From a virus: a stretch of DNA of 64,000 nucleotides. The stretch lies in IMG/VR virus record IMGVR_UViG_3300021579_000001, positions 1 to 64,000 of that record; one strand, given 5' to 3'. A program made the translations under genes and the position numbers. Numbering within the stretch: position 1 is the stretch's first letter; each line of letters opens with the position of its first letter. Below, in pieces: positions 1,340-30,364 of the stretch. The notes under the pieces were generated by a model. That model did not search any database, was not told the DNA's origin, and worked only from the letters and a program-made list of their open reading frames with translations.

Positions 1340-3007
1340 ATGAGTATTTCATTAGCACTAGACGACTTGATAGTCGTGAAAGATGTGGATACGACAGTGG
1401 CTATCCGCGAGATGGCTGACCAAGTAACAGGTTACAACGGTGACAACTACGGTAGCATCTACAACGAAACACTCAAGCAGATGATGGTTACACCCAAGAG
1501 CATTCTGCACAATGTCGGCAACGAAGCTATCGTTTACAAGTGGTACCGTGCAGTAGTCAAGCACAGTGACTATGTCCTTGCTCACCCTGAGAAGTTCATC
1601 GACTTGCTTCTCGACGCATCAGGTGAGCCTGAGCCTGTGCGTGTTCGATACGCAGGTATCGAAACTCGTTGGACTAGAGGTCGCTTGACTTGGCTGAAGA
1701 TTAGTGACGAGTCTATTGTCAAGCTCTTGGACTCAGTACTACCCCGCCTAGCTGATGCTGACGACAGTGGCACATACTTGTGGAGCCTACCAAAAGTAGA
1801 TGAAGATGCTCCGCTAAGTGTGCAGGCTTACAGCAGAGCCAAGTTGCGCAATGTTGATAGCATCTTCTATCACTCGCCACGCATCTGGGCTACCATGCAC
1901 GGCACCGAAGGCAGAGTCATTGCCTTCCGAGGTACCCGTGCCAAGTCCACAGCCTCGGAAGACTTGCGAGCAATCTCCACCCTAGCTACCAGCCTTGGTA
2001 AGCACGACAGCTTGAAGCGCATGTTCAAGCAAGAAGCTAACACCTTGCGTTCTCTACTAGCTATCGAGCAAGCTTCAGCAGCTACCAAGCAGTCAATCCG
2101 AGTGCCTAAGACACAGACCTTTGAACAGTTCTGGCGTCAGCTCAAGTCAGGTAAGCGTCAGCTTACCATGAACCTTGAGGTTACCACTAAGATGTGGGGA
2201 GCTATCCCACTACCTGCCAACGGCACAGGTAGCTGGCGTTCATGGGGCATCGAAGTCGAGACCATGCACGCTGAGCGCACTAGCCGTCCCCTTGGCTGGC
2301 ACGAGGTTCACGATGGTTCACTAGAGAGTGAGGTCAACGACTGCGATTGTGGCTGTGTGTACTGCGACGACGATGACCACTGCCATGACAGCGAGTGCAC
2401 AAACGGTAGCGCATGTGCTGAGTTCGTATCTCCTATCCTCAATCACTTCCACAGTGCAGGACTCAAGAAGCTGTGCGAAGAGATTGGCATGGACGGACAC
2501 AACACCAGCCCAGGTGTGCATGTGCATGTCGATGCTAGCGATGTGACAGTATCAGATGTTCGACGCTTGCTCTTTGCTTACGGTGCTATCTCTCCATTGC
2601 TTGAGCCAATCTATCAGCGTCAAGTCCGTGACTACTGCAAGGACTTGCCTCTTGACCAAGTGGCACACTGGGCACGCTACACCAAGCAGTACATTCCAAC
2701 CACCATTGCAGCTCAGGTCATCTATGACATTGGGTCGGGAGACCGCTACCAAGATGTCAACCTGTGTGCACTGACCAAGCACGGCACCATTGAGTTCCGT
2801 GCCATGGGCCCTGTGTACGACTACGAGTACCTAGTTCGTTGGGCTTGGTTCTGCCGTCAGATGGTGGCTGTGTCCAAGGTTGACCTACCACAGCGTGTGT
2901 GGTCTGCGTGCAGTTCATTGGCTGATGTCATTCAGTTACTCATCAAGCACGGAGATGAGAACAACCCAGGGCACGACCTCACCTTGTCCACCCTTATCGA
3001 GCAGTAG
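1340..3007 (+). CDS. Amidoligase family (COOH-NH2 ligase) protein
   Basis: 555 residues from the ATG at 1340, chosen because AAAGGAGATACTCTC precedes it; the open frame extends 51 bases upstream without such a site. The C-terminal half carries hallmarks of the Amidoligase_2 family, a glutamine-synthetase-like fold that joins a carboxylate to an amine using ATP: GIEVE (303-307), HDGSL, EFVSPIL, GVHVHVD (about 392-398) and GTIEFR (about 482-487). An acidic Cys/His-rich insertion (about 334-356, with CDCGC, CVYC and HCHD) sits between the first two and may bind zinc. The N-terminal 290 residues are unrecognised. A class II glutamine amidotransferase follows, so ammonia transfer from glutamine is the natural proposal. 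The substrate is unknown. Confidence 0.85.
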   Translation: MSISLALDDLIVVKDVDTTVAIREMADQVTGYNGDNYGSIYNETLKQMMVTPKSILHNVGNEAIVYKWYRAVVKHSDYVLAHPEKFIDLLLDASGEPEPVRVRYAGIETRWTRGRLTWLKISDESIVKLLDSVLPRLADADDSGTYLWSLPKVDEDAPLSVQAYSRAKLRNVDSIFYHSPRIWATMHGTEGRVIAFRGTRAKSTASEDLRAISTLATSLGKHDSLKRMFKQEANTLRSLLAIEQASAATKQSIRVPKTQTFEQFWRQLKSGKRQLTMNLEVTTKMWGAIPLPANGTGSWRSWGIEVETMHAERTSRPLGWHEVHDGSLESEVNDCDCGCVYCDDDDHCHDSECTNGSACAEFVSPILNHFHSAGLKKLCEEIGMDGHNTSPGVHVHVDASDVTVSDVRRLLFAYGAISPLLEPIYQRQVRDYCKDLPLDQVAHWARYTKQYIPTTIAAQVIYDIGSGDRYQDVNLCALTKHGTIEFRAMGPVYDYEYLVRWAWFCRQMVAVSKVDLPQRVWSACSSLADVIQLLIKHGDENNPGHDLTLSTLIEQ

Positions 3008-3025
3008 CTCACCCACTCAATCAGT

Positions 3026-3050
3026 AGGGGGCGCAGTTGTTGCGCCCCCT
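3026..3050 (+). promoter_or_regulatory. G/C-rich hairpin between amidoligase and amidotransferase genes
   Basis: AGGGGGCGCA (3026-3035) and TGCGCCCCCT (3041-3050) form a perfect 10-bp stem with a five-base loop. There is no T-run after it, so RNA stabilisation or processing within a shared transcript is more likely than termination. Confidence 0.5.
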
Positions 3051-3073
3051 GCACACTACGAAAGGAGATACCC

Positions 3074-4156
3074 ATGTGTGGTATCGCAGGCTTTAGCCTA
3101 TCAAAGAACAGCAACATCAACGCACAAGCATTAGCACACGCATTGCTGTGCAGTATCGAAGACCGAGGGTACATGGCATCAGGTTATGCATACCAAGAAA
3201 TCGACGGTAGCATCTCAGTGCACAAGGGTGCAGTAACAGGTAGCTTGCTATCAGTCGCAGGCTTACCTGAAGACGCAAGCAATGTTATCCTGCACACTAG
3301 GCTAGCAACTCACGGTTCAATCGATGTCAATGACAACAACCACCCAGTGTGGTCACCCAACAAAGGCATCGCCCTAGTACACAACGGTGTTATCCACAAT
3401 CACCACCAAGTGCGTGCCATGCTAACTGACAAGTTGCCTGAAGTAGACACCAGTGTAATCCCTGCGCTACTTGAGTCAGGTTCAACAGACATGCTAGACA
3501 ACCTATCAGGTGATGCAGCTATCGCATGGTTCGATGTGACTGACCCCAACCGACTACACCTAGCCCGCTACCAGTGGTCACCACTTGTAACAGCGACACT
3601 AGAAGATGGGTCGTTCCTGTTCTGCTCAACCGAAGCATTGCTATGGGAAGCATTGATTGCGCTAGACATCATGCCTGAGTCTATCCAGTCAGCTAAGGAG
3701 CTCGACTACTTCATCATCGAAGACGGCATGGTAGTTAGCAAGACCACGCTACCCAAGCCTAAGAGTGGTAGCTATGGATACGACAACGACTACTTCCGCT
3801 ACCAGACATCAGGTGCTAAGGGTGGGTTTCAGTACAGCCCCAGCGCATGGCTAGACGAAGACGACGACGACTATGTGTACGCACCACCAGTAGTAATGGG
3901 TCGTAGTGTCTTGGGTCTATCCGATGACGAGTACGCACAGTACGAAGAAGACCAAGCTATCGAAGAGAACATGCCAATGTTCTGGGCTAAGATACATCAC
4001 CAAGGTGAGTACGAGCAGACAGAGTTCTTCTTCAAGCACGAAGAATCCCTATGGCAACACAGCGTGTCCCTTAGCCAAGAAGCAGGTGTGCTAGTAGACT
4101 ACGGTCGTGTAGAAACTACTTTAGTATCCGCACTAGACACCGATGATACCTTCTAG
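3074..4156 (+). CDS. Class II glutamine amidotransferase (Ntn hydrolase)
   Basis: 360 residues starting MCGIAGF, so Cys2 becomes the N-terminal nucleophile after Met removal, as in GlmS, PurF and asparagine synthetase B amidotransferase domains. HTRLATHG (about residue 73-80) and VHNGVIHNH (about 101-109) are the expected glutamine-site motifs. The family releases ammonia from glutamine and channels it to a partner domain. No synthetase domain is attached; the last 120 residues are acidic and unrecognised. The partner is therefore probably the amidoligase encoded 66 bases upstream. GAAAGGAGATACCC gives a strong ribosome binding site. Confidence 0.9.
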   Translation: MCGIAGFSLSKNSNINAQALAHALLCSIEDRGYMASGYAYQEIDGSISVHKGAVTGSLLSVAGLPEDASNVILHTRLATHGSIDVNDNNHPVWSPNKGIALVHNGVIHNHHQVRAMLTDKLPEVDTSVIPALLESGSTDMLDNLSGDAAIAWFDVTDPNRLHLARYQWSPLVTATLEDGSFLFCSTEALLWEALIALDIMPESIQSAKELDYFIIEDGMVVSKTTLPKPKSGSYGYDNDYFRYQTSGAKGGFQYSPSAWLDEDDDDYVYAPPVVMGRSVLGLSDDEYAQYEEDQAIEENMPMFWAKIHHQGEYEQTEFFFKHEESLWQHSVSLSQEAGVLVDYGRVETTLVSALDTDDTF

Positions 4157-4166
4157 CAAGTAACAC

Positions 4167-4188
4167 ACGGGGGGCGCAAGCCCCCCGT
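4167..4188 (+). terminator. GNRA-loop hairpin after the amidotransferase gene
   Basis: GGGGGGC (4169-4175) and GCCCCCC (4180-4186) close a GCAA tetraloop, extended by A-T and C-G pairs to 4167/4188. Very stable, but no T-run follows, so it may mark an mRNA 3' end or a processing point rather than an intrinsic terminator. Confidence 0.5.
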
Positions 4189-4225: not shown

Positions 4226-4648
4226 ATGTCACAATCATTCTCAGTAGCAGGTCTAGTAGCCACTAGCCCACGACACATCATCACCAGTGAAGGCACAGCT
4301 ATCACATCTTTCCGACTAGCAAGCATGTACAGAAAGTTTGACCGCAGTCAGAACCGTTGGGTTGATGGAGAAACAAACTGGTACACCATCACTGCGTTCA
4401 ACCAGCTAGCTATAAATGTTTCCGAGTCAGTCAGCAAGGGCGAGCGCGTGATTGTTACTGGAGAGATGCGTGTGCGTGAATGGGACAACGGTGAGCGTAG
4501 CGGTACATCAGTAGAGATTGACGCCGAGTCAATAGGTCATGACCTAAGCTGGGGCACTGCAACCTTCTTGCGCACAGTCCTAGTACGAGAGACCACACCC
4601 CCTGATGATGCGCCAGCGCCACGCCTACACCCTATCTCAGTAGCGTAA
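4226..4648 (+). CDS. ssb: Single-stranded DNA-binding protein (SSB, OB fold)
   Basis: 140 residues. The order of segments is that of bacterial SSB: an N-terminal strand with FSVAGLVATSP, then TSFRLASM, WYTITAFNQLA, KGERVIVTGEMRVREW and a following strand. This matches the OB fold that coats single-stranded DNA during replication. The usual long Gly-rich linker and acidic DDIPF tip are absent, so it probably does not recruit host proteins the usual way. CAAGGAGAAACAA precedes the ATG. It is set apart from the replication cluster at 27-43 kb, which has its own ssDNA-binding-like protein. Confidence 0.88.
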   Translation: MSQSFSVAGLVATSPRHIITSEGTAITSFRLASMYRKFDRSQNRWVDGETNWYTITAFNQLAINVSESVSKGERVIVTGEMRVREWDNGERSGTSVEIDAESIGHDLSWGTATFLRTVLVRETTPPDDAPAPRLHPISVA

Positions 4649-5807: not shown

Positions 5808-6023
5808 ATGAGCGACAAAGTTTACACAGTAAACATCAACAAGTACAAGGTAACTACTGAAACACCTGATGGTCAGGTAGAGAACATCATGTGGGCAACC
5901 GATGATGGCGTGGTTGAGTGGGCTTCAAAGCACTCAGCAATCTCAACTGAGCTAATCGAAGTTGGCGCAGTTCAAAAGGGCAAGCCAGTAGTTCACATCA
6001 ACGCACCCAGCAAAGGAGAGTAA
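5808..6023 (+). CDS. Small protein, unknown function
   Basis: 71 residues after AAGGAGCAATA. Starts with several likely beta strands (VYTVNINKYKVTTE). No motif recognised. Four bases before the next gene. Confidence 0.62.
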   Translation: MSDKVYTVNINKYKVTTETPDGQVENIMWATDDGVVEWASKHSAISTELIEVGAVQKGKPVVHINAPSKGE

Positions 6024-12968: not shown

Positions 12969-13193
12969 ATGTCTGGTAGAAAAGACGTAGAAGTCTTAGT
13001 ACAAAAGGCTAGGGAACAAGGATGGACTGTGACTAAAACAAAGGGCAGCCATTACAAATGGGTCAGTCCTTTGGGGGGTCTGTTCTTTTCCACATCAACT
13101 CCCTCAGACTTCAGGGCCATCGACAACCTAAAACGTGACATGAAACGTTACGGGTTTATTGAAATCACAAAGAAAGGTAGGCGCTCACGATGA
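12969..13193 (+). CDS. HicA-like protein
   Basis: 74 residues. TKTKGSHYKWVSPLGG and the following strand resemble HicA/YcfA: a short double-stranded-RNA-binding-like fold with a conserved G-S-H whose His (residue 28) is catalytic in toxin members. No HicB antitoxin is beside it, so it is either a stand-alone nucleic-acid-binding protein or paired with an unfamiliar partner. TAGGAGCCAGC precedes the ATG. Confidence 0.7.
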   Translation: MSGRKDVEVLVQKAREQGWTVTKTKGSHYKWVSPLGGLFFSTSTPSDFRAIDNLKRDMKRYGFIEITKKGRRSR

Positions 13194-13471
13194 GTACCTT
13201 CAAACAAATGCACAATGCTATGGACGTAAGTCAAGCTGCCTGTAAAGACAGTGACCCTGAGTTGTTCTTCCCTGAGAAGATGACCCAACAAGCTGCTGCC
13301 GATGCTAAGGCAGTGTGCGCTGAGTGCCCTATCATTGCTGACTGCTTGACTTGGGCAGTAACAGCTAAGGAGCTTGGCATCTGGGGTGGCACTACGGAGA
13401 ATGACCGTAAGCGCCTACATTCTAGCCAGGCATTAGCCTCCTACGTGCTGCAGCTTCGCGCTAAAAACTAG
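13190..13471 (+). CDS. WhiB-family Fe-S transcription factor (1)
   Basis: 93 residues. Four Cys at 18, 43, 46 and 52 in the WhiB pattern (C, CxxC, C) ligate a 4Fe-4S cluster. GIWGGTTENDRKRL (63 onward) is the turn and basic helix. WhiB proteins bind the principal sigma factor and are limited to Actinobacteria and their phages. ATGA overlap with the HicA-like gene. Last gene of the plus-strand run, so possibly a late-early switch. Confidence 0.92.
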   Translation: MSTFKQMHNAMDVSQAACKDSDPELFFPEKMTQQAAADAKAVCAECPIIADCLTWAVTAKELGIWGGTTENDRKRLHSSQALASYVLQLRAKN

Positions 13472-13526: not shown

Positions 13527-15560
13527 TTATTTGTTGTTTTCGCTAATCAACTTGATTTCACAAGCGTCTGTGGTGCAGTAAGCTTCGCCTACAGCATCCA
13601 GCGACATTCCCTGGTAAACTCCTTCGAAGTCAATCGGGAACAACTGGTTGCCATACTCAGTGTACTCTTCCTCAGTAATCTGAGTGTAAGGCATCTGAGG
13701 GTAAACGTGGTTTCCCATTGGCAAGAAGCTGACAGTCTTCAACTGGCCATCGTACATGTGCAAAACCGTACCAACAGCTTCTGATTCTTTCTCTGCGTCA
13801 AACGTAACCGTTACAGACACAGAGTTGTCTGACCAGTAACGCTGTGCAGTTGCAGCAAGCGACATCTTCTCGTAGATAGATACTTCTTTCTCCGAACGGC
13901 TAGCGCCACTCTTAATCGGGAAGAATACTACAGACGTTGTGTCTGGAGATTCTGACGCTGGCTCGATACGATAGTTAGCCATCTTAAACAGTTCAAGCAT
14001 AGGTTCGTTGTTCGCAAAACGAATAGCCCTTAGGAAGTACTTGCCACCAGCAGTCCAGTGTACGCCAGGGCTTTCACCAGCAAGGATACTTACAGTACCT
14101 GAAGGCTTCACAGTAGTCATCTTGATAGACTCACGCACACCAAGCCACTCAGAGTAAGTAACGTCGTACGTCTTTACCGTAGCGTACCCTTCATTCATCC
14201 ACTCACGTAGCACTGGTAGCCCTTGGTTATCTGCAAAGTTAGCGACACCTGAAACAGATGTTCCAATACGACGGTTACGCTGCATGATTGCGTTGGTCTC
14301 TTCCCAGTGAGTAGGAAGCAAGGTAACAGTCTTAGCGTAGAGATACGCAAACTTGAGAGTGCGCTTGAAGTCTTCCAAAGACTCGTGACGGTTCAAGTAA
14401 GTTTCTACAAGAGTGCACATCTCAAAGCTTTCTAGGCTTTGTTCTGCACAAGGGTTGTACCCTACAACACGCCAATCCTTATTATTAGGGGCGTCAATCA
14501 AGCGACCATACTGGCGCGAAACATCCATCCAAATAACACCTGGCTCACCGTTGCGGACGATGCCATCAACGATAGGTGAGAAGTCCGTTCCAACACAAAC
14601 TTCCACCGAGTTGTTTGACATCCATGCCCAACCTGGGGCTTCAGGGTCATAGCTATTACGCTCAGGAAACCTTTCAGCATTTTTCAAGTTCAAGAAATCT
14701 TGGTCGTCAATACGGCCAATCAAAAGCTCCGCTGAACGACGCACGTTGCCTGATACAACACAAACACCAATGAGGTTGCCAATGTCAGCAATGTCTTTGC
14801 GAGTAAGCTTGTCTCCCTTACGTTTGCGGAACACGTTGCGGATTGCACCATGCAGTTTGAACAATGGGTCTGGACCAGAGGCTGTACCACCAAAGGTGGC
14901 AATAGGAGAACCGTATGGACGAATCTGGTCGTAGTTAAACTCCCAAATAGGTTGTTCAGGTTTTAGGTAGCTGTTAATCAACGCAACTGTTGACTCCATC
15001 CAACCTTCACGAGTGTCAGGGATTACATACTCTTGGAATCCTTTAGGCTCATAAATCTCAAAACCTTTATCTGCGCCCTTGTCATCAAAACCTACGCCTA
15101 CACCCAACATCGATGCTTCCATTAGGAATGCAAACGGCTTACCTGGGTTCTGCTGGGTCATTGCCTTAGTTGAAACAAACGCACAGTTCTGTAGTGCTGC
15201 TGAGTTTTTCTGAATGTTCACAATTGGGGTACCCATTACCCATAGACCGCGACCTGGTGGAGTCCACTTTAGATTGAACAAACGGTCAAATGCTTCTTTG
15301 GCACTTGCTGCTGCCTTTGCGTCACTCCATGGCAAACGGTTCTGTTTTGCATGGTCCTTCTGTAGTGAATACATACCGTTGATTACACGTTCGCATACTT
15401 CTGCCCAAGTTTCCTTGGTGCCGTTATCTTTCTTACGACTGTATGTACGGAGGAATGTAATCTCGCCAACCGAGTTTCCTGCTACGTCTGCATAACCGAA
15501 CGGTGGCTTCTTATCCCTGTATCCTGCGACAAACTCTGCCGCTAGTTGAAACGAAAACAT
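13527..15560 (-). CDS. nrdJ: Class II (B12-dependent) ribonucleotide reductase, monomeric NrdJ type
   Basis: About 677 residues from the ATG at 15560, chosen because AGGTGG lies eight bases before it; ATG at 15566 and GTG at 15572 are in frame. It reduces ribonucleotides using adenosylcobalamin, like the Lactobacillus leichmannii enzyme. Visible signs are GRGLWVMGT, LQNCAFVS (first redox Cys), GNVRRSAE, NPCAEQ (thiyl-radical Cys) with the second redox Cys exactly 11 residues on (FEMC), KPSGTVSILAGESPG and a C-terminal CTTDAC pair. All catalytic Cys are present. Being oxygen-independent and needing no small subunit suits a phage, but it depends on host cobalamin. Confidence 0.93.
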   Translation of the reverse strand: MFSFQLAAEFVAGYRDKKPPFGYADVAGNSVGEITFLRTYSRKKDNGTKETWAEVCERVINGMYSLQKDHAKQNRLPWSDAKAAASAKEAFDRLFNLKWTPPGRGLWVMGTPIVNIQKNSAALQNCAFVSTKAMTQQNPGKPFAFLMEASMLGVGVGFDDKGADKGFEIYEPKGFQEYVIPDTREGWMESTVALINSYLKPEQPIWEFNYDQIRPYGSPIATFGGTASGPDPLFKLHGAIRNVFRKRKGDKLTRKDIADIGNLIGVCVVSGNVRRSAELLIGRIDDQDFLNLKNAERFPERNSYDPEAPGWAWMSNNSVEVCVGTDFSPIVDGIVRNGEPGVIWMDVSRQYGRLIDAPNNKDWRVVGYNPCAEQSLESFEMCTLVETYLNRHESLEDFKRTLKFAYLYAKTVTLLPTHWEETNAIMQRNRRIGTSVSGVANFADNQGLPVLREWMNEGYATVKTYDVTYSEWLGVRESIKMTTVKPSGTVSILAGESPGVHWTAGGKYFLRAIRFANNEPMLELFKMANYRIEPASESPDTTSVVFFPIKSGASRSEKEVSIYEKMSLAATAQRYWSDNSVSVTVTFDAEKESEAVGTVLHMYDGQLKTVSFLPMGNHVYPQMPYTQITEEEYTEYGNQLFPIDFEGVYQGMSLDAVGEAYCTTDACEIKLISENNK

Positions 15561-15684
15561 CGTCATAACCACCTATTTCTCTTTTTTGTTAAATACCCTT
15601 ATTGGTATACCTCTATTGTCGGTGTTTTTAGCCTACTACACACCTACTAATATGGTCAACTGCCAATATACTTGCCTAAATGTT
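15561..15684 (-). promoter_or_regulatory. AT-rich upstream region of the RNR gene
   Basis: This gap of about 120 bases holds no gene. The minus strand has TTGACC and a GGTATACC palindrome before the RNR start, but no convincing -35/-10 pair with correct spacing. A promoter or regulator site here is likely from position, not proven by motif. Confidence 0.3.
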
Positions 15685-15739: not shown

Positions 15740-17233
15740 CTATCTTTCCAACTTATCTTGGATAATGCTGGTGGTAGCATCGGCATCTATGACCCTTTTA
15801 TTCTCTTTTGCGGCATCTACTCGGTCACCAAAAATGGCTGCCAAAACTCCCTGGCTAGCGTCCCGCTGTGCCGTGATTTGAATGAACTCTTTTTGCTCAT
15901 CCAACTCCTTCAAACTTTTCAACATCTTCAAGTAACGGTCCATCTCTTGAGACACGTTTGGGTCTGCGTATCCACCATTCAATTCTTCTGAAAACCGCAT
16001 GAATGCTACTCTCTGGGCCTGCATCTCTAGCAACGCAATGTTCATTGCCTTCAACTGGTCAGGCGTTTTTACCTCTATCGGCAGGCTAAACGCACAGGTA
16101 GTATCTGCCTTAAATGCTGGACAGTTTGCTGCTACAAAACACGTGTTACATTGTCTCAAACTTGCCTGTTGGCTGTTTACGACAGGCACATCTTTCAACA
16201 CATCTCTGCCGTTTTCGTGCTCTACTACCTGCTTCATCTCGTACCCAAAAACAGGCATTGATGTCATCTCTAATGGGTCTCTTTGGGCCACTTCTACGCG
16301 TTCAACTTTCCGCATTGCTGACCCACTGTTATTAGAACCATCTACCCCTAAATCCATCAAACCCGTATATAGGGTATCATCACTGTTATCAGCTACTAGT
16401 GGCTTCCATGGGTGGTTATTTTCGATTGGTGCTTTGTCATTCATTGTTTTCTCTAACTGTAAATACGACCATACAGCAACTTTTGTTGCCTCTAAGGTGT
16501 CATCATCAATAAACTTCTGGAAATCTAACCCTGATTTTTCTACGATGTTTTTGTATCGAATACGGGCTTGTGCCTTCATTTTTTTGGGGTATCGAACGAG
16601 TTTTGACCCATCCCAGATAATCGTTTCGCCTCGACGCATTGGGGATATCCAGCTCAACGTCGAGGCTGTAGTAAAAGGTATCTGACGTAGGTTATCTGGT
16701 TTGGCTACCGCTAGTCCGTGCAACACCGTCTTGTGGATGCGCACCATGTTACGGGCAATGCCTGCCAATGACTTTACTGACTCAATCGCATCGCCTGGAA
16801 TAGCGATGTTCTGGTGCAAAAACCCCCACTGCTGGAGTACTGGAATGCCGTACGACTCATGCCATACCACAATCATTTTCTGGTCATTCTGGAACGGTTC
16901 TCGTTCTTTTACTACCCATTCTTTGCCCAAAACTTGGCTGTCAAACTCTACCCAGCCCTCGATACGTTCGTAGTTTAGAGCTACAAACTCTTGGTAATCT
17001 GCCGCAAACTCTTCCAGTTCTTCTCGGCTTAGGTTCGCTGCGTCTGCCTGTACCGCACCAGAATCCAACCACACCTTCATGTCAGGCAAAAAATGCTCAC
17101 TAATCAAATACGGTTTGTTCTTTGGCATACCCCGCTTACGCAATCCCCAATAGTTGAGCATTACGTTACTTGCCCCTGATTTTTCTAGCAGTATTCGGTT
17201 ACTAGGAATCTCGGTGCCACTAAATACAATCAT
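15740..17233 (-). CDS. TGT/DpdA-like TIM-barrel protein with C-terminal Cys-cluster domain
   Basis: 497 residues. The N-terminal 265 resemble the tRNA-guanine transglycosylase family, which in phages (DpdA) swaps guanine in DNA for 7-deazaguanines: VWLDSGAVQ (about 54-62), IVVWHESYGIP, NIAIPGDAI, LHGLAVAKP and ASTLSWISPMRRGETI. The last corresponds to DSTSW in DpdA as I recall it; here the expected Asp is Ala. The usual TGT zinc motif is absent. A separate C-terminal part (about 345-497) has CNTC-x5-CP-x7-C followed by helices. It may be an altered base-exchange enzyme or a DNA-binding relative. No preQ0 synthesis genes are in the window. Its start overlaps the end of the next gene by four bases. 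Confidence 0.5.
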   Translation of the reverse strand: MIVFSGTEIPSNRILLEKSGASNVMLNYWGLRKRGMPKNKPYLISEHFLPDMKVWLDSGAVQADAANLSREELEEFAADYQEFVALNYERIEGWVEFDSQVLGKEWVVKEREPFQNDQKMIVVWHESYGIPVLQQWGFLHQNIAIPGDAIESVKSLAGIARNMVRIHKTVLHGLAVAKPDNLRQIPFTTASTLSWISPMRRGETIIWDGSKLVRYPKKMKAQARIRYKNIVEKSGLDFQKFIDDDTLEATKVAVWSYLQLEKTMNDKAPIENNHPWKPLVADNSDDTLYTGLMDLGVDGSNNSGSAMRKVERVEVAQRDPLEMTSMPVFGYEMKQVVEHENGRDVLKDVPVVNSQQASLRQCNTCFVAANCPAFKADTTCAFSLPIEVKTPDQLKAMNIALLEMQAQRVAFMRFSEELNGGYADPNVSQEMDRYLKMLKSLKELDEQKEFIQITAQRDASQGVLAAIFGDRVDAAKENKRVIDADATTSIIQDKLER

Positions 17234-29176: not shown

Positions 29177-30024
29177 TAGTCCTCCTTGTATGGGGCGCAC
29201 TGCTTGCAGACTCCGCCTGGTACGTTGTTACATTTAGGTGCCACGCCCTCAGCAAGAGCATCAACTACAAACTGTGCTCCCTCGAAGATGTGAGCCACTA
29301 GTTCGTAGTCCGCACGAATCGGAGGGAACTCACGGATAGACTGGTCCGCCTTTAGTTCATATAAGAAAGTAATCTCGTGAACTTCGTGACCCATACGACG
29401 CATAAGCTCTAGATACATTTGACCTTGCAAAATGTGAGAGCCGAATGGGCGCTTGATAAGCTTCCATGCTTCCATGAAATCTCCGTTAGCTTCCTGCATT
29501 AGCTGCGGAGCTTCAGAGCGAATAGTTCCTGGACCCACTGACTTAATCTCGATTAGGGTGTCTGCACCGATACCTTTAATCCAGCCGTCAGTGTGTCCAG
29601 CAATACGTAGGTCATTATCAACCAAGGTGACTTCATCGTAGATGAGTTTGCTAGAAGGGGCGTCACAAGCCATGCAGTTTGAAGGGCTAGTTCCCCAAGT
29701 AACACGGTCACAAACTAGGCACTTAAATTTGCCATGAAGAACTCCCATTTCTTGGAAGTACTTTTGCCATTTTGCGTGAATAGCATGGCCTTCATCAAAG
29801 ATACTCTGCAGACGCAGTGGTGGCTTTTCAGCAACTTTAGTGTGCCCTTTTAGCAGAAAGTATGAGGCTCGCTTGCACCAGTCGCGCTTAATAATTTCAG
29901 AGGGGTGCAGCACGGTGGTGCTGCGGTCACCCACTGGACGAGCAAGCAAGTAACGCTCGACGTCTCCTAAAAGCCTAGTTGGTTTTGCCTTAGCATCAAG
30001 AAACTTTTTTAGGTCCGATACCAT
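29176..30024 (-). CDS. Cas4-like RecB-family nuclease with inserted zinc ribbon
   Basis: 282 residues. GHAIHAKWQ (His80), IAGHTDGWIK (Asp146), LIEIKSVG (Glu159, Lys161) and ILQGQMYL are the PD-(D/E)XK motifs in order. Cys50 and Cys265, 273, 276 are placed as the 4Fe-4S ligands of Cas4/AddB-type nucleases. A second cluster Cys102, 105, 117, 120 is an inserted zinc ribbon. There are no CRISPR genes or arrays nearby, so it is a phage recombination exonuclease acting with RecA. Confidence 0.85.
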   Translation of the reverse strand: MVSDLKKFLDAKAKPTRLLGDVERYLLARPVGDRSTTVLHPSEIIKRDWCKRASYFLLKGHTKVAEKPPLRLQSIFDEGHAIHAKWQKYFQEMGVLHGKFKCLVCDRVTWGTSPSNCMACDAPSSKLIYDEVTLVDNDLRIAGHTDGWIKGIGADTLIEIKSVGPGTIRSEAPQLMQEANGDFMEAWKLIKRPFGSHILQGQMYLELMRRMGHEVHEITFLYELKADQSIREFPPIRADYELVAHIFEGAQFVVDALAEGVAPKCNNVPGGVCKQCAPYKED

Positions 30025-30364
30025 CTTGTTCTCCCGTGTCTAATTGAAAGATGTACTCTTTCAATGTCATTTGTGTTCTGTATTTTCTTTGCCATTTTCT
30101 GACTAAAGCGTTTCTCTCTCGATGAGACATCCCGCCCCAGATTCCATAAGGCTCTTCGGTTTGGACTGCTTCCCAAAGACAGTCAAGTCTGACAGGGCAC
30201 GGTAGAGTGTTACCGTCTCCTTTACAGTAGCTCTTTGCTTCTGCAGCAATCTTGCTGTAAAGGGCCTTGTCTCTTGGTGGGAAGAAAATGTCGGGGTCTT
30301 CGACTCCGTCACATTCTGCCAAATAGCGCCAAGATTGGTCATCGTTCTGAAAGAGGTTTAGCAA
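29996..30364 (-). CDS. WhiB-family protein (2) with widened Cys spacing
   Basis: 122 residues, starting at TTG (30364) inside the upstream gene. Cys18, 47, 56 and 62 with DPDIFFPP and GIWGGMSHRERNAL show the WhiB fold. The central CxxC is replaced by C-x8-C (CKGDGNTLPC), which is unusual and may alter the Fe-S cluster. It has about 30 extra C-terminal residues. Overlaps the Cas4-like gene by 29 bases. Confidence 0.85.
   Translation of the reverse strand: MLNLFQNDDQSWRYLAECDGVEDPDIFFPPRDKALYSKIAAEAKSYCKGDGNTLPCPVRLDCLWEAVQTEEPYGIWGGMSHRERNALVRKWQRKYRTQMTLKEYIFQLDTGEQDGIGPKKVS

Follow-up and report, generated by a model that had tools for sequence, protein, structure and literature searches.

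The window analysed here, a stretch of 64,000 nucleotides (64 kb), is part of a virus record of 91,322 bases and carries two neighbouring rightward genes near its start. The first (1340..3007, + strand) encodes an Amidoligase_2-type ligase of 555 aa, made up of an N-terminal part to which no family could be assigned (residues ~1-290) and an amidoligase domain (~297-510), while the second (3074..4156, + strand) encodes a stand-alone class II (Ntn) glutamine amidotransferase (GAT) of 360 aa, in which the GAT domain (residues 1-225) is followed by an acidic, poorly ordered C-terminal tail. The initial annotation had placed both genes correctly, with the amidoligase ATG at 1340, the GAT ATG at 3074 and an AGGAGA-type ribosome-binding site before each. 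The Amidoligase_2 and GATase families are each represented by a single copy in the genome.

A perfect GC-rich hairpin (3026..3050; fold -27.4 kcal/mol), with no T-run behind it, lies between the two genes and is among the two GC-richest perfect hairpins of the early gene block, and another GC-rich hairpin (4167..4188) lies behind the GAT gene. The presence of these hairpins between and behind the genes makes their co-transcription uncertain. An RNA family search gave no match, and the intergenic hairpin was rejected as an element common to relatives, since it occurs in only some of them and with unrelated sequences.

Behind the GAT gene lies a gene for a single-strand DNA-binding protein (SSB; 4226..4648, + strand; PF00436, E 8e-19), a neighbour that is outside the enzyme, and the same SSB family stands behind the GAT gene of the relative L012; beyond it come many small rightward genes in a row. 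Published cassettes are likewise located among replication genes (PMC5498523). As judged from gene content and order, virion assembly would suit this setting less well than a host target and expression early in infection. The host itself is very probably an actinobacterium, as the early suggestion of an actinophage is supported by two WhiB-family genes in the window (13193-13471, + strand, and 29999-30364, - strand) and by the detection of WhiB in 6 of 12 related contigs versus 1 of 14 control genomes (Corynebacterium).

Other genes of this phage were also inspected. Genes of the host-metabolism type, for ThyX, thioredoxin, an Hsp20-like protein and ribonucleotide reductase, were noted at L003:7702-8714 (+), L003:10733-11275 (-) and window 13527-15566 (-), and in the region from window 63404 to L002:1687 a + strand ORF amid - strand tail genes looked glycosidase-like by eye and had no Pfam or PHROGs match. 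The gene that comes after it, past the window end (L002:407-1687), with its LVLGIEYE start, was considered as a second amidoligase and rejected because its C-terminus matches FkbM methyltransferase. A search for defence systems returned nothing of note, its one hit being to Cas3d (E 0.014), which we took as chance.

Families, active sites and folds of the two proteins

The assignment of the first protein to Amidoligase_2 was borne out by profile search, in which PF12224 matched residues 300-509 over profile positions 3-245 of 245 (E 8e-15, with a score of 55.8 bits where the curated Pfam cut-off is 22), and phrog_2443 was matched among the PHROGs (E 9e-16). The motifs on which the initial annotation had based this assignment, GIEVE (E305, E307), GVHVHVD (H394, H396) and GTIEFR (E485, R487), are all present, and alignment of 57 amidoligases showed that their named residues are invariant together with G303, S327, E361, G392 and N474. 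Across the same 57 sequences, window included, the core residues of the motifs GxExE, DGS, E.VSP, GxHxHxD and GTxEFR are invariant or nearly so. The AlphaFold model of the amidoligase domain has a pLDDT of about 80-96 outside a Cys/His-rich insertion, and Foldseek matched it mostly to glutamine synthetases, with a YbdK-type carboxylate-amine ligase second. Because these matches are weak (best E 0.017, TM <0.4), the model suggests a glutamine synthetase-like fold and does not prove it; a sequence search for a solved structure of a relative found none.

The second protein matched GATase_6 (E 7.5e-19) and GATase_7 (E 8e-13) in Pfam over residues 69-187, as well as phrog_14519 (E 2e-36), with phage GATs matching from residue 1. 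Its N-terminus, MCGIAGF, puts the nucleophile Cys directly after the initiator Met, and the glutamine-binding and oxyanion motifs HTRxATHG, NNHP, HNGxIxN and VD are present. Alignment of 37 phage GATs showed C2, R76, T79, H90, N104, G105 and D125 to be invariant; these correspond to the nucleophile and the glutamine/oxyanion residues known from GlmS and PurF. The model of the GAT domain (residues 1-225) reaches a pLDDT of about 97, and its best Foldseek match in the PDB is the glutaminase domain of GlmS (E 7e-16).

The C-terminal 130 residues of the GAT are poorly ordered in the model, and a C-terminal TSG motif was rejected as a conserved feature because it does not persist across the wider set. 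No family matched the protein beyond residue ~220, and thus it has no synthetase domain, which agrees with the early description of an amidotransferase with Cys2 and no such domain. The NCBIfam models for GlmS, AsnB and PurF covered residues 1-213 only, far under their cut-offs, and therefore no acceptor domain is present in the GAT chain either.

Co-occurrence of the two genes in phages

Single-protein queries of either protein against IMG/VR gave nothing, and alignment queries were used instead. With the GAT alone as query, 79 viral loci were gathered, and an amidoligase gene was found within the stored flank of the GAT in 72 of them, although many of these 79 loci are near-copies and the count therefore overstates the number of independent cases. 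In 65 of the 72 paired loci the amidoligase and the GAT share a strand, and the median distance between them is close to zero; one subclade has them in divergent orientation. Among the other seven loci, L015 is truncated by the end of its contig, and the L085 protein did not score as a GAT. In the remaining five (L068-L072), where the GAT is at 6001, it is immediately followed by an ATP-grasp gene in place of an Amidoligase_2 gene.

The non-redundant set from both searches gave a different view from the side of the ligase, since 72 of 101 informative amidoligases were paired with a GAT, a share that depends on the way the loci were found, and about 29 had no GAT nearby. On the amidoligase tree, paired sequences cluster strongly, and the unpaired amidoligases fall in their own groups, such as those of Porphyromonas phages. 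These unpaired amidoligases indicate that the ligase needs no such partner in general. The initial annotation had counted homologues with only one of the two genes against the pair, and on this point the results are divided: amidoligases alone are frequent, but a GAT without an adjoining ligase gene was absent from the informative phage loci. Thus, in the phage loci examined, the GAT comes with a ligase, and the ligase is often found without a GAT.

Pairwise distances of the amidoligases correlate with those of the GATs (r 0.80 over 63 loci, with a shuffle maximum of 0.14), a correlation that is confounded by shared phage descent. The pairing is not due to chance.

Variations on this arrangement were also seen. 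One viral contig (L117, 1-6924) has five tandem amidoligase-like ORFs with one GAT among them, and at four loci (L127, L128, L151 and L162) two different amidoligase genes flank one GAT gene. Most of the bacterial loci (L168-L186) carry distant GAT enzymes that have no amidoligase with them.

The Cys/His-rich insertion of the amidoligase

The Cys/His insertion pointed out in the initial annotation is real. It occupies residues 328-360 (2321..2419, + strand), contains CDCGCVYCDDDDHCHDSEC and comprises 33 residues with seven Cys between the invariant S327, which follows D325-G326, and the invariant E361, which belong to two conserved active-site segments. The S327-E361 spacing is 30-51 aa in the clade that has the insertion versus 3-21 aa in the other amidoligases compared, and the pattern CxCxCxxC...HC...C was found in 12 of 12 clade members, that is, the window and 11 relatives, and each of the 12 has a GAT as its partner. 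They form one group, and a single change accounts for the insertion on a tree built without its columns, which had been dropped as sparsely filled (fork support 92; L024 is long-branched). A search of the open-access literature for a Cys/His insertion in amidoligases returned nothing relevant, and this one-origin clade of 12 GAT-paired amidoligases looks new.

The spacing of the Cys and His residues suggests a zinc site, and we give about even chances to a structural zinc bound by the insertion at the active-site rim. This region of the model is unreliable (pLDDT about 56-64). The insertion would probably assist in substrate binding or in docking of the GAT. A regulatory role was also entertained: in the 12-member clade the Cys6/His cluster could be metal- or redox-responsive, such that zinc or thiol state (a thioredoxin is also encoded by the phage) gates a self-contained two-gene ligase that amidates an actinobacterial envelope component, but we consider this improbable. 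Whatever its role, the conserved insertion offers a clear mutational handle.

Proposed function and relation to known cassettes

The intact active sites of both proteins, the near-universal pairing from the side of the GAT and the correlated divergence of the two together give good support to an enzymology based on ammonia supply, and the pair is likely to be a two-part glutamine-dependent amide ligase. The GAT would hydrolyse glutamine via Cys2 and pass the ammonia to the amidoligase, where ATP would serve to activate a carboxylate in the form of an acyl-phosphate, from which the primary amide is then made. From the position of the pair among early/replication genes, we infer, with less certainty, that it may act on the host early in infection; the two-part ligase and a host target, taken jointly, are slightly favoured. 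The target would most likely be a carboxylate of a cell-envelope peptide, for example D-iGlu or meso-DAP of peptidoglycan stems, and the outcome could be less attack by competing phages or a wall that is changed before lysis. These last steps are less certain, and the location of the target in the cell envelope is tentative, falling somewhat below an even chance. Nothing in the genome points to a target. Hence, of the interpretation first given to this locus, the supply of ammonia by the GAT to the amidoligase stood up to analysis of active sites, pairing and divergence, while the amidation of peptidoglycan, capsule or a phage protein to alter phage susceptibility found no supporting feature in the genome.

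A target of this kind has been put forward in print before, for cassettes of related phages. The idea of a peptidoglycan modification that blocks superinfection is credited to Iyer 2009 and Hardies 2013 in PMC10580990, PMC5498523 and PMC11945000, and a changed peptidoglycan during infection has the standing of a hypothesis for the known cassettes too (PMC5498523).

Other explanations of the pair were considered. The amidoligase might join two larger molecules, such as an amine and an amino acid, a peptide or a protein tag. The GAT would then be a glutaminase or gamma-glutamyl hydrolase, with the task of providing glutamate or of editing what the ligase makes instead of feeding it ammonia. Reconstructions of larger cassettes (PMC5498523) invoke unusual peptide linkages and their degradation by GAT/GGCT members, and the frequent occurrence of amidoligases without a GAT would also be consistent with such an activity. 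However, every residue that forms the glutamine site in ammonia-producing GATs, the GlmS family among them, is invariant here, the two-gene form has no GGCT, and the window's genome also has no ATP-grasp and no second carboxylate-amine ligase, which makes this explanation unlikely. Protein amidation in place of cell-wall amidation, with carboxylates of a phage or host protein such as RNA polymerase or a virion component as the target and takeover or assembly as the purpose, is quite unlikely; the early position of the pair would suit such a role, and the title of Iyer 2009, as it is cited in PMC4431377, proposes that amidoligases of these folds modify peptides and proteins, but the near relatives have no adjacent conserved substrate candidate beyond the SSB and small unassigned ORFs. 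A role in making or modifying a small molecule or nucleotide, such as amidation of 7-carboxy-7-deazaguanine for a DNA base, was considered because the phage has an orphan DpdA-like transglycosylase gene (window 15740-17233, - strand; phrog_887, E 1e-59; queuine tRNA-ribosyltransferase-like), whose product has about 33% identity to proteins of Streptomyces phages BRock and GiJojo (GiJojo gene 181 is annotated dpdA-like) and 63-70% to those of the related records G001 and G012, both of which also have the pair, but this is highly improbable and was set aside, since no QueC, QueD/PTPS or radical-SAM genes were found in G000, G001 and G012, the DpdA-like gene is more than 11 kb from the pair, Arthrobacter and LUZ24-like phages with the pair had no match in the DpdA search, and Streptomyces phages with this DpdA had no GAT match.

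Amidation of a host carboxylate by a two-part ligase remains our preferred reading, and the closest known arrangement is that of the Arthrobacter phages of cluster AL (Laroye, Salgado and Edmundo) and Ottawa, which like the window have an adjacent amidoligase and GAT in the same order and strand and an actinobacterial host; in Edmundo and Ottawa the pair is annotated as adjacent genes. AIG2-like and amidoligase genes are named for Arthrobacter phages in PMC5513430. Their GAT has 38% identity to that of the window over 220 residues, but their amidoligases, of about 320-340 aa, are without the long N-terminal part and the Cys/His insertion, and cluster AL has a GGCT gene just upstream of the pair that is absent in the window's phage. 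Many phages carry amidoligase and GAT genes, and the pair is found also in LUZ24-like and other phages. The 'peptidoglycan modification' cassette of LUZ24-, RIO-1- and phiEco32-like podoviruses (Hardies 2013 and Iyer 2009, as cited in PMC5498523 and PMC11945000) likewise has Amidoligase_2 and a class II GAT among replication genes, but adds genes for GGCT, an ATP-grasp protein and a COOH-NH2 ligase. For all three, the 91-kb contig gave no match, and GGCT was also not found in 12 near relatives, mostly fragments, so that GGCT was rejected as a third partner here, although it is one in the Arthrobacter phages. Since all three genes are lacking, the window's phage has a reduced two-gene form. PF12224 and PF13522 are also reported together as auxiliary genes of the OM43 phages MEP401 and MEP402 in PMC10580990; these phages have a marine proteobacterial host, and the text makes no mention of a Cys/His insertion.

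The enzyme pair, its gene order and the idea of a role in the wall and superinfection are thus already known; the window's pair differs by the reduced cassette, the long N-terminal part and the clade-specific Cys/His insertion, the last of which looks new. A search of the open-access literature found no biochemical test of phage amidoligase/GAT genes. The actinophage two-gene form reduces the published cassette to its smallest version and is therefore the easiest to assay, with two proteins, glutamine, ATP and candidate carboxylates; the outcome would open a hypothesis dating from 2009 to direct testing.

In bacteria, MurT-GatD and AsnB/LtsA use glutamine to amidate a cell-wall carboxylate in peptidoglycan. 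MurT-GatD combines a Mur-ligase fold with a class I amidotransferase, and AsnB is a single chain with an adenylating synthetase domain. Both systems resemble the window's pair by its proposed working only, as their ligase parts belong to other families. A stand-alone class II GAT was also observed on the chromosome of a Gaiellaceae MAG (L168:7505-9691), close to ORFs that looked MurT-/GatD-like by eye.
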